Shown here piece after piece: positions 14,719 through 17,881 of a stretch of DNA of 64,000 nt; position 1 is the first letter of the stretch; each line of letters opens with the position of its first letter. Under the pieces are notes generated by a model. It saw only the letters and a program-made list of their open reading frames with translations, was not told where the DNA came from and made no database searches. The position numbers and the translations under genes are program-made. The DNA comes from Cytidiella melzeri (Eukaryota; Basidiomycota; Agaricomycetes; Polyporales; Irpicaceae), in NCBI GenBank assembly GCA_022592445.1, contig JABYQR010000031.1, forward strand, positions 124,001 to 188,000, in the 5' to 3' direction.

Positions 14719-15372
14719 CTGTCGCAGCCTCACAAGAACTAGCTCTACTGCTTTCCTCCTTACCACCACCTCTCCTTCCTGCATCCACACGGCTGGTACT
14801 TGTCGTCAAGCTTCTCATATCAAGACCATCCTTGCGCGCAGTGTCCTCAAGACTAGGAGGATTAAGACCTTCCGCTCAAGCTTCAAGACCATGGGTACTA
14901 GTTAAGGTATGGCTGGAAGGTCGTCGTGGGATGTGTTGTTAGGGGAGTCATGACCCTGTTTGAGCCTCGCATGCCCTTCGCTCGTCCAGCCTTCCATGAT
15001 TACTGTTTGACGCAATGTGTGTTCGCTCACCTCTCTGCTGCCCTACCGAGCTTTGTAGGTACGAGTCGGGCGTCGCGTCTGGCCAAAGAGGGTATCTATG
15101 TGGAGATGGGAGCCGCACGAGTGAGACTGAGGCCTGATCACCCGATGATGTCGAGCTGGGGCGGCGAGGTCGGTGTTCGGTATCTTCTCTCTGCACGCTC
15201 AAGCTTTACCATTTTCTGCTCACGGCGTTTGTCATCATTCCATACTCACTTGCCCTTTTGCCATTCTAGTTCTTCTTATCGCCTTCAGTATGCAAGGTAA
15301 GTACTGATCACCATACCTTTTCATCACATCTCACAGACGTGTTTGATTCAGGCATAGCAAAGAGCCAGCCCT

Positions 15373-15393
15373 GGGGGGGGGGGGGGGGGGGGG
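15373..15393 (+). repeat. Homopolymer tract of 21 G
   Basis: An uninterrupted run of G lies 13 bp before the first stem-loop module. It could form a G-quadruplex in RNA or DNA. Its exact length is unreliable because such runs are prone to sequencing and assembly error. Confidence 0.8.
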
Positions 15394-15405
15394 AATGGAT
15401 GCACG

Positions 15406-16855
15406 GTAGGTCGATAAGTAGCTTCGAGGGCGTGACCCAACTCCTGCTTTCGGATGCATTTCTCTTTTCCCCTTCTATCTTTTGTTCGGCGTGCTGTTGT
15501 TCTACTTATTCCCTTTCTCTTACTCACCAGCACGTCTAAGTGTCTTCAAGTCGCGCGCAGTGTATCAATTCAAGACCGAAGTGCCGATGGACTTGAAGGT
15601 AAGCCGAATATGCAGCTTTGAGGGCTCCATGACCCAACTCCTGCTTTCGGATGCATTTCTACGGCAATATACTGCTTGGCATTTACTTATACTGTTCTCT
15701 ATTTGAACATCAAGCCTTCAAGTCGCGCGCAGTGCATGAATAGTCAAGACCGAAATGCCGATGGACTTCAGCGGTATGCCGAATATGCAGTTTCGAGGGC
15801 TCCATGACCCAACTCCTGCATTCGGATGTATTTCTCTCGTACCCTTCGTCGCACTTGATTCAGTGTCTTACGCGCTGTACCGCCTTTTGTTCCATTGATG
15901 TCCTTCTTCATCCCAGAGTGCGCTGGTCTTCAAGCGGCGTGCAGTGCATGTCAAGAGCGATCGAACTAACGGTAGGCCGAATAAGCTGTTTTGAGGGCTC
16001 CATGACCCAACTCCTGCTTTTCGGATGCTCTTGCCCTTCGACCTTGTATTTCGCATGCTGTACCGCCTCTTGATTTACATATGCCCTTTCTTCTGCTCAT
16101 CAGCACGTCAAATGTCTTCAAGTCGCGCGCAGTGTATGAAGAGTCAAGACCGAAGTGCCGATGGACCTCGACGGTAGGCCGAATGAGCAGTTTCGAGGGC
16201 TCCATGACCCGACTCCTGCTTTTCGGGAGTATGTGATATCTTTCTAACCACCAGTTATCTCCCGCACGAGTATGTATTGCCTTCCGTTTTACTCAGTCTT
16301 TTTCTATGCGCATAGTTTCATCAAGTAGGTCGTGCAAAACAACAAGGTTTGTAAGGCTCTTGCATTCTTGTTGCTACTGATTAATATTCTCAACAGGATG
16401 CCAAGTACAGCATCTCGAAGCCGCGTGCACTGCACCAAGAATACGCCTCAAGCCAGCAGAGCCGAGCGTACTGAACGGTAGGCTGGATGAGCAGCTTTGA
16501 GGACTCATGATCCAACTCCTGCTCTCTGGACCACTTCGCTATTGTTTGCTGCTACATGTGCTCGCTATCAATGTTCCGCCGTTCCTTGTTCATGTTCATG
16601 CGTATGGTCGCTCTGATTACCTCAGTTATGCACAGCTTATGCTCTGACTAATATAGAGCTTCCGAAGGTGAGTAGCAGTGACGTTGGTTAGTATCATGCT
16701 TTTCTGATTATGGTTGACTCGTACAGGGTCTTTGCCGGGTCGAAGTCGCGCGCAGTGTTTCAAGAACAGCCCAGACCGAATGAGCCGAGGGCTAACTCAC
16801 GTAGGCAGGACGAACAGTTTCGAGGGCATCCATGAGCCCAACTCCTGTTTTCCTG
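15406..16855 (+). repeat. Seven copies of a GT-initiated stem-loop element with co-varying arms
   Basis: The copies lie at 15406-15453, 15599-15650, 15774-15825, 15972-16024, 16174-16226, 16478-16529 and 16801-16855. Spacing is about 175-320 bp. Each starts with a 5' splice-site-like GT. Copy 5 shows the plan: outer arm CCGAA with TTCGG, a 2-nt bulge, second arm AGCAG with CTGCT, then an inner GGG with CCC around a loop containing TCCATGA. Copy 3 changes the second arm to TGCAG with CTGCA. Copy 7 changes the outer arm to CAGGA with TCCTG, the second to AACAG with CTGTT and the inner to GGGC with GCCC. Copy 6 changes the inner arm to GGA with TCC. Copy 4 has a partly mismatched second arm. The pairings were found by eye. 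Confidence 0.75.
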
Positions 16856-16979
16856 AGTATCACTTCTCTCACACCCCACCTCGGGATGTTGTTACCTCTC
16901 TCCTCTTTCCCCTGCATCCTCTTTGCTTAAGGGCGTTGGTTGCTCAACACTGAATAGTTTTGTATTTTTGTTCCGCAGG

Positions 16980-17881
16980 CGTAAGTAGGCGGAGAGCAAT
17001 AGCGATGACGGGAGAAAGCCCGGATGCAGGACGGAGGTCTGGCCAGCCTCCGGCTTTGTATTCATGGTTGACTCCTGTCATGAAAGCGCCAAAAAGCGTA
17101 AGTCGCTCTGGTACACGGGGCATTCACCATGAGCTAACTCGCCTACAAAGAGCACAGGGAAGAATATCTTCGACCTAGCAAGTCACGTGTCTGTCGTGCA
17201 GTGTCGTTGCTTTTTTTCTTTCGCCTGCGAGAGAAGCTGCTAGGCCGTTCTCGCGTGCGGACTGTGGTCCTTCATGCGTAAAACACTGCTTACAGCCGTA
17301 GTGTTCGAGGATCAAAATCCGGCACTCAAGTGTCTATCTGTTGTTGGTCATCGCGCACCGTACGCACAGAATTTCCGCAGTTAGTGGTGAAGTTGTCGAC
17401 CTGCAACATCCCCCGGCTCAGACATCCGCTATGTTTCTATATTATGACATCCACTTCTAGTAGCGAAAGTAATTTACGAAAATGTAGTGCAATGTTGAAA
17501 CGGGCTGCGCTACAAAGCTCTTGTCTGGATGATTTAGCAAACGAAACACACAACTTACATTAATCAATAGAATACGAGAGAGTATACATACAGTTAATAA
17601 TATATTCTACAAATCAGAGAATACATACTTGGGCAAGCTCCATGCTACACTGTAGACTTTTGTGTTCTCAGCGTGCCTCGGCACCCTGTGCGAAGCAGGT
17701 TATTCCTTTCACAACGCATAGGCTGAATGTAACAACCGCTCAAGGGCGTAGCTGGTGTTCTACCCAGGTGCAAACAGCAACCAGAAGAAGAAAGCGCTCC
17801 ATAGATGCCATCCTCAGCCTCTCACTTGCGCTGTCCAGAAGCGCAGTAAAGCTTGGGTATTTCGATGGCGGGGTGTTAAAG
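16980..17881. other. Region without a recognisable gene
   Basis: After the last module acceptor the sequence shows no further copy of the stem-loop and no convincing exon. It becomes AT-rich at 17440-17640, which probably belongs to the 3' flank of the convergent coiled-coil gene. Confidence 0.4.

Follow-up and report, generated by a model that had tools for sequence, protein, structure and literature searches.

Host genes of small nucleolar RNAs (snoRNAs) can carry tandem intronic snoRNAs, SNORD115/116 in SNHG14 being an example, and in yeast the introns of ribosomal protein genes can hold RNA structures, RPL30 being a further case beside RPS14B. The Drosophila 3′-tailed mirtron miR-1017 also affects the splicing of its own intron (PMC10853799). 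Using covariation, Gao, Jones and Rivas (2021) described 17 conserved structural fungal RNAs, some of them intronic, in a screen of five ascomycete genomes which states that no high-quality annotation of Basidiomycota was available (PMC8216456). Here we describe a repeated hairpin, alpha, in a 64,000-nucleotide stretch of DNA (the window) from the genome of Cytidiella melzeri (Polyporales), where seven copies with one common pairing plan lie between positions 15406 and 16858. We favor, with a probability of roughly 40%, the reading that this locus is one of three paralogous loci, each of which would be a non-coding host gene that is spliced and sets the hairpin free from its introns as a small structured RNA.

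A preliminary description of the window, made from its letters, had proposed seven elements with a shared pairing plan, and all seven were read at the place it gave, each beginning with GT at the first position listed in Table 1. The arms that it quoted are present, namely CCGAA/TTCGG and AGCAG/CTGCT in copy 5, TGCAG/CTGCA in copy 3, GGA/TCC in copy 6 and CAGGA/TCCTG, AACAG/CTGTT and GGGC/GCCC in copy 7, as are the donor words GTAGGC (copies 4–7), GTAAGC (copy 2), GTATGC (copy 3) and GTAGGT (copy 1). The fit to the plan holds for copies 2–7, with one middle-arm mismatch each in copies 2 and 4, but not for copy 1, which is degenerate and whose minimum-energy fold differs from the shared plan (z −0.25). 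Copy 1 also lacks the exon motif that precedes the other six copies, and a run of 21 Gs (15373–15393) lies just 5′ of it, where the others have that motif. The alpha element is 52–58 nt long. A 6x5 internal loop breaks up its stem, which closes with just 3 apical pairs, and the conserved loops of the element are an internal UUYRA facing RACUC and an apical loop that is mostly CUCCAUGA or CUCAUGA. Because single copies fold with ordinary energies (z −0.25 to −2.04 across the seven window copies), the case for structure rests on covariation.

Searching the species' own genome (49.7 Mb, 731 contigs) with one unit as a DNA query revealed two further loci, C479 and C434, carrying eight and two alpha copies, respectively, which brings the total to 17 copies at three loci, all in one species. 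When stretches of about 10 kb were compared, the DNA homology between the window and C479 was confined to a transcript-like unit (window 14729–17138, plus strand), and that between the window and C434 spanned 14836–17073. Because the open reading frames (ORFs) flanking the three loci differ, as judged by eye, and the homology ends with the transcript-like unit, the loci look like paralogous genes rather than alleles of one locus. Covariance model R1, built from the 17 copies, scored them at 62–90.4 bits, the next best match in 115,903 bases reaching 11.1 bits. Genome-wide, short patterns for the hairpin core and three neighboring elements matched the three loci only, the core pattern, in the form used, catching 10 of the 17 copies (from two loci); reversed control patterns gave no matches except 2 for the intron-1 apex, whose three true matches are exact. 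A dispersed transposon or short interspersed element (SINE) was rejected, the hairpin being present at three loci only in the genome DNA and short-pattern searches and, with R1, at the places fetched from them. A public gene model, BC835DRAFT_1305558 (hypothetical protein), lies antisense over part of the C479 array (L011:4156-5597) and is probably a spurious prediction.

To set the covariation of these 17 copies against their phylogeny, we used an unmodified MAFFT alignment (A1) with 13 pairs and a tree-aware null, in which the number of changes per column was kept and the changes were placed on random branches of a FastTree tree in 2000 runs. In the nine middle and inner pairs, a subset that we picked since re-gapping is impossible there, 10 double-change cells were counted against 2.3 expected, and none of the 2000 null runs was as high. 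Over all 13 pairs the result was weaker, the null being as high in 17/2000 runs for double-change cells and in 164/2000 for pairs, and further pair types were not above the null without re-gapping (1175/2000 for the 13 pairs; 353/2000 and 379/500). When the outer 3′ arm was re-gapped by hand, a step that leans towards structure, 14 pairs gave 15 cells against 3.3 expected, with 0/2000 null runs as high for cells and for pairs. Paired changes are seen, for example, in columns 15-51 (A-U, U-A, G-C), 16-50 (G-C, A-U) and 28-39 (G-C, A-U). Standard pairs make up 94.2% of the cells of A1, with a covariation score of 0.209; sliding the arms against each other by −3 to +3 lowered these values to 33–59% and 0.036–0.111. 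The preliminary description had proposed selection on RNA structure and had made this depend on covariation above phylogenetic expectation. Such covariation was found, strongly in the nine-pair set and less so for cells over 13 pairs, and together with the hairpin-specific conservation between non-syntenic loci it supports the view that selection acts on the alpha RNA fold, the weaker 13-pair results standing beside it.

Conservation between the loci is graded. Hairpin identity was 79–83% (48–49% after shuffling; 17 hairpins), that of the exon part preceding the hairpin was 69–70% (49–50%; 16 exon parts, copy 1 contributing none), and that of the intron tail, the rest of the intron, was 46–52%, near the shuffled level of 46–48% (17 tails, 6 of them cut at 150 nt where no exon motif could be located downstream). 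The exon is therefore less well kept than the hairpin part of the intron. Two copies, b5 and b6, are near-identical over unit and tail, and both lack 7 nt of exon. The exon word CAAGTCGCGCGCAGTGT, allowing up to 2 mismatches, had 11 genomic matches beyond the arrays, whereas the reversed control had 2 (the 11 are on contigs C1, C46, C89, C134, C140, C223, C269, C301, C379, C512 and C579), and R1 detected no hairpin at any of these 11 places (best score, 8.5 bits). On C512 (L072:1502-1590), the exon-like words GTCGCGCGCCGTGT and GTCGCGTCCCGTGCAGTG stand near each other without a hairpin. An exon hairpin pairing GACCG with the donor had one compensatory case by eye and several mismatches, and RNAalifold gave no prediction; we do not claim it.

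In all 17 copies, positions +1 to +3 are GTA and +5 is G, whereas +4 is G, A or T, and in the re-gapped alignment the stem begins at +6 of this GTANG word in every copy. An invariant GTA and +5 G with a variable +4 is a donor-type pattern, and acceptor-like AGs and some branch-point-like words lie downstream, so that the link to a splice donor made in the preliminary description holds as a prediction. Gene models, in which all splice sites are predicted, were drawn by eye for the window and C479. They contain 13 and 12 predicted exons, respectively, with an exon 2 of 33 nt and an intron 1 of 152 nt in both, an exon 1 of 168 nt in the window and 172 nt in C479, counted from starts that we chose ourselves, and hairpin introns of 116–179 nt. 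An acceptor could be placed by eye for every intron of these two loci, two of the window acceptors being AAG instead of YAG. Introns 1 and 2 aside, four predicted late or tiny introns that lack the alpha hairpin have ordinary donors (GTGAGT twice, GTAAGT and GTTTGT). No ATG ORF above chance was found in the spliced RNA of the two models, the longest being 74 aa (as long in 103/300 mononucleotide shuffles) and 73 aa (98/300). The RNA of the locus is likely to be spliced and non-coding.

Rfam 15 gave no match in the whole window at the gathering score, and at E-values up to 10 no family was common to the three loci; the absence of a known fungal RNA family with this plan, as first described, stands at both thresholds. 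Box C/D snoRNAs were rejected, as the first 115 nt of the 17 introns held a C box ([AG]TGATG[AT]) in no case, a D box in 6 and a C box followed by a D box in none. Box H/ACA snoRNAs were likewise rejected (ACA within 15 nt after the hairpin in 0/17, ANANNA before it in 6/17), as was a spliced-leader RNA, an Sm-like word following the hairpin in 1/17 and the introns of the two modeled loci having by-eye acceptors. A protein-coding repeat was also set aside, the spliced ORF being no longer than in shuffles and b5 and b6 being without 7 nt of exon. Three translated frames had no relative in a protein database outside the C. melzeri genome, where one protein was matched. The alpha and intron-1 patterns gave no matches in IMG/VR. 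The alpha pattern had 5 matches in GTDB genomes, which fit R1 around the apex only (10.9–13.5 bits) and look like chance. A gamma 17-mer had 3 matches in IMG/VR, where R1, which models alpha, found nothing, and we judge these to be chance. The search of the C. melzeri genome did not find 5.8S rRNA, and a literature search, judged by title and the start of the abstract, found no description of this element.

Three neighboring elements, not listed in the preliminary description, accompany the alpha hairpins at all three loci (Table 1). The intron-1 apex word is exact at each locus and occurs nowhere else in the genome with up to 1 mismatch. In the intron-2 element (beta), the word GAGGCC or GAGGGC is followed by UGAUCACCC at all three loci, and this pattern matched four genomic places, all of them inside the loci (reversed control, 0). 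The gamma apex word was found at the three loci only (reversed control, 0). The gamma region (16978–17100) folds with z −4.11, none of 200 shuffles folding as well, and its consensus from three sequences has 30 pairs, of which 5 show a double change and 8 are broken or gapped in one sequence. A late hairpin of C434 (L012:3877-3951, minus strand; z −3.00), beside a donor-like GTAGCC, carries the intron-1 apex in an alpha-like position, as if elements had been shuffled between introns.

Table 1. Features of the predicted host gene in the window (window positions; scores in bits are those of model R1).
Feature	Position	Strand	Remarks
TATA-like box TATATAA	14711..14717	+	presumed promoter (prediction); homology with C479 starts just downstream, at 14729
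Predicted exon 1	14739..14906	+	holds the word GCGCGCAGTG; by-eye model, start approximate
Intron-1 hairpin	14911..14991	+	beside donor GTATGG; apex AGGG-GAGUCAUGA-CCC; fold z −1.49
Intron-2 element (beta)	15129..15153	+	GAGGCCUGAUCACCC and GATGTCG; consensus structure weak
Alpha copy 1 (degenerate)	15406..15457	+	donor GTAGGT; 64.3 bits
Exon motif around TCAAGTCGCGCGCAGTGT	15538..15568; further copies at 15710, 15922, 16110, 16408, 16733	+	repeat family D4, six copies
Alpha copy 2	15599..15654	+	donor GTAAGC; 83.5 bits
Alpha copy 3	15774..15829	+	donor GTATGC; 88.5 bits
Alpha copy 4	15972..16027	+	donor GTAGGC; 75.2 bits
Alpha copy 5	16174..16229	+	donor GTAGGC; 76.9 bits
Alpha copy 6	16478..16532	+	donor GTAGGC; 74.2 bits
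Alpha copy 7	16801..16858	+	donor GTAGGC; 62 bits
Long hairpin (gamma)	17005..17081	+	apex GAGGU-CUGGCCA-GCCUC; in predicted late exon 16979-17097

The repeats, their donor-like starts, the covariation, the graded conservation and the shared anatomy of the three loci, with no ORF above chance in the two modeled transcripts, are directly established. Graded conservation, multiplication and the host-gene layout together favor a trans-acting small RNA produced from introns. One structured element per intron, with different ones in introns 1 and 2, is a layout that resembles snoRNA host genes, and the multiplication of the hairpin fits a trans-acting product needed in amount. The host gene would be transcribed from the TATA box and each predicted hairpin intron would be spliced, so that the released RNA would have its 5′ end fixed by the donor. 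Debranching would be followed by trimming of the unconserved 3′ tail, in which the branch point and pyrimidine tract would lie, and the hairpin would survive if a protein held the conserved internal and apical loops. The dose would follow from the number of copies (7, 8 and 2). A small RNA released from the alpha hairpins would be one not described before.

Several points weigh against this host-gene reading. The evidence is drawn from one species only, and no known ribonucleoprotein box was found in the 17 introns. Conservation extends to the exons, and a predicted exon contains gamma, the strongest of the folds; the product may therefore be the host RNA itself. It is unusual for an intron-borne snoRNA to lie directly against the donor, and the constant distance to the donor seen here points to a role in splicing. 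The splice sites were placed by eye, and the branch-point-like word, present in 6/12 window and 8/11 C479 introns, is counted without a chance baseline. Finally, a slide of the arms by +1 leaves much of the double-change count in place (4 pairs and 7 cells, compared with 4 and 9 in the unshifted alignment), although it lowers the share of paired cells from 94.2% to 58.5% and brings the covariation score down from 0.209 to 0.111; the surviving double changes probably come in part from the outer arm, which takes that register in some copies.

The alternative that survives best, possible but tentative in our estimate, is that the hairpin controls splicing in cis: starting at +6, it would compete with U1/U6 at a weak donor and form a protein-dependent switch for the repeated exons, in the manner of RPS14B. 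The donor position, fixed in all 17 alpha copies, fits such a role, as does the occurrence of a hairpin within a few bases of a donor-like word in window intron 1 and in one late C434 copy, and the GTAGGC-like donors of the alpha introns differ from the GTGAGT, GTAAGT or GTTTGT of the four late or tiny introns without alpha. There are precedents, since structures in the yeast RPS14B and RPS9A introns are reported to bind the proteins of their own genes and to lower expression (PMC12350175), and deletion of miR-1017 is reported to cause intron retention (PMC10853799). However, it is hard to see what use one non-coding RNA would have for eight repeated switches, there is no protein product to close a feedback loop, and GUANG is unpaired in 7 of the 9 alpha copies folded. 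Release of a small RNA and control of splicing in cis may both be true, by analogy with miR-1017 in flies.

Rather doubtful, in our view, is a scaffold or sponge function, in which the unspliced or partly spliced transcript would be one long RNA with many protein-binding hairpins. Its layout would be comparable to that of the Xist A-repeat or the roX RNAs. The conservation of both exon motif and hairpin is consistent with this function, as are the strength of gamma in a predicted exon, its retention at three loci, and the recurrence of a similar apex in introns and in the predicted late exon. By contrast, the donor-type constraint in 17/17 copies (GTA, variable +4, G at +5) and the acceptor-like tails suggest that splicing takes the hairpins out.

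It is unlikely that the three host genes make, in many copies, a new class of splicing-born RNA in which the donor would form the 5′ end of the hairpin and loop-to-loop pairing would join hairpins and host RNA into a multivalent assembly. A perfect 6-nt palindrome lies in the loop of each of the intron-1, beta and gamma elements (window 14911–14991, 15129–15153 and 17034–17053), for which the chance in a random loop of 7–9 nt is 3–6%. Assembly of this kind is conceivable because self-complementary loop words (UCAUGA, UGAUCA and UGGCCA) occur in the intron-1, intron-2 and 3′-end elements and in 3/17 alpha copies, a further 10 alpha copies keeping the four letters CAUG and 4 keeping none. Kissing loops as the main function were rejected, since the alpha loops do not maintain the perfect palindrome. 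A symmetrical C/G swap relates the shorter alpha loop to the beta loop (UCAUGA versus UGAUCA). The alpha loop also bears some likeness to the anticodon loop of initiator tRNA.

We consider it improbable that the introns are 3′-tailed mirtrons, excised, trimmed and diced to microRNA-like RNAs of about 22 nt. An element of 52–58 nt would leave room for two 22-nt arms, but the stem is broken by its 6x5 internal loop with 3 apical pairs only, and the loops are strongly conserved while the stems covary. When the best-conserved 17 nt of the 3′ arm were searched for with up to 2 mismatches, the two strands together gave 7 genomic matches outside the arrays and the reversed control gave 10, which shows no surplus of sense or complementary sites. 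In addition, fungal microRNAs and microRNA-like RNAs are reported to lie wholly inside protein-coding introns very rarely, Cryptococcus neoformans excepted (PMC9757828). An ordinary repeat, left by tandem duplication of a once-functional unit without present selection, is very improbable: copy 1 is degenerate, tandem arrays expand and decay, and b5 and b6 are near-identical over unit and tail, but between loci the tails, unlike the hairpins, have diverged to nearly the background level, and paired changes are more frequent than the tree-aware null predicts.

Basidiomycetes seem to be poorly charted for structured non-coding RNAs, the phylum being omitted from the covariation screen cited above (PMC8216456), and none of the RNAs in the part of its table considered here is a tandem donor-side hairpin. 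A covarying hairpin at a predicted donor, in 17 copies at three loci, offers a test case for whether splicing sets the 5′ ends of stable RNAs or is itself gated. Like snoRNA host genes, the locus combines a predicted non-coding spliced host, tandem exon-intron units, one structured element per intron and an unconserved tail; unlike them, it has no C/D or H/ACA boxes that we could find, its hairpin touches the donor, and its exons are conserved too. With miR-1017 it would share a hairpin that starts from the 5′ splice site, here a predicted one, and leaves a 3′ tail; it differs in that its internal loop is large and its apical stem short, its loops are conserved, its arms covary, and the hairpin has 17 copies in predicted non-coding genes. 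As in yeast ribosomal protein genes such as RPS14B, an intronic RNA structure may gate splicing through a bound protein, but here the structure lies outside a protein gene and is repeated 7–8 times at two loci and twice at the third.
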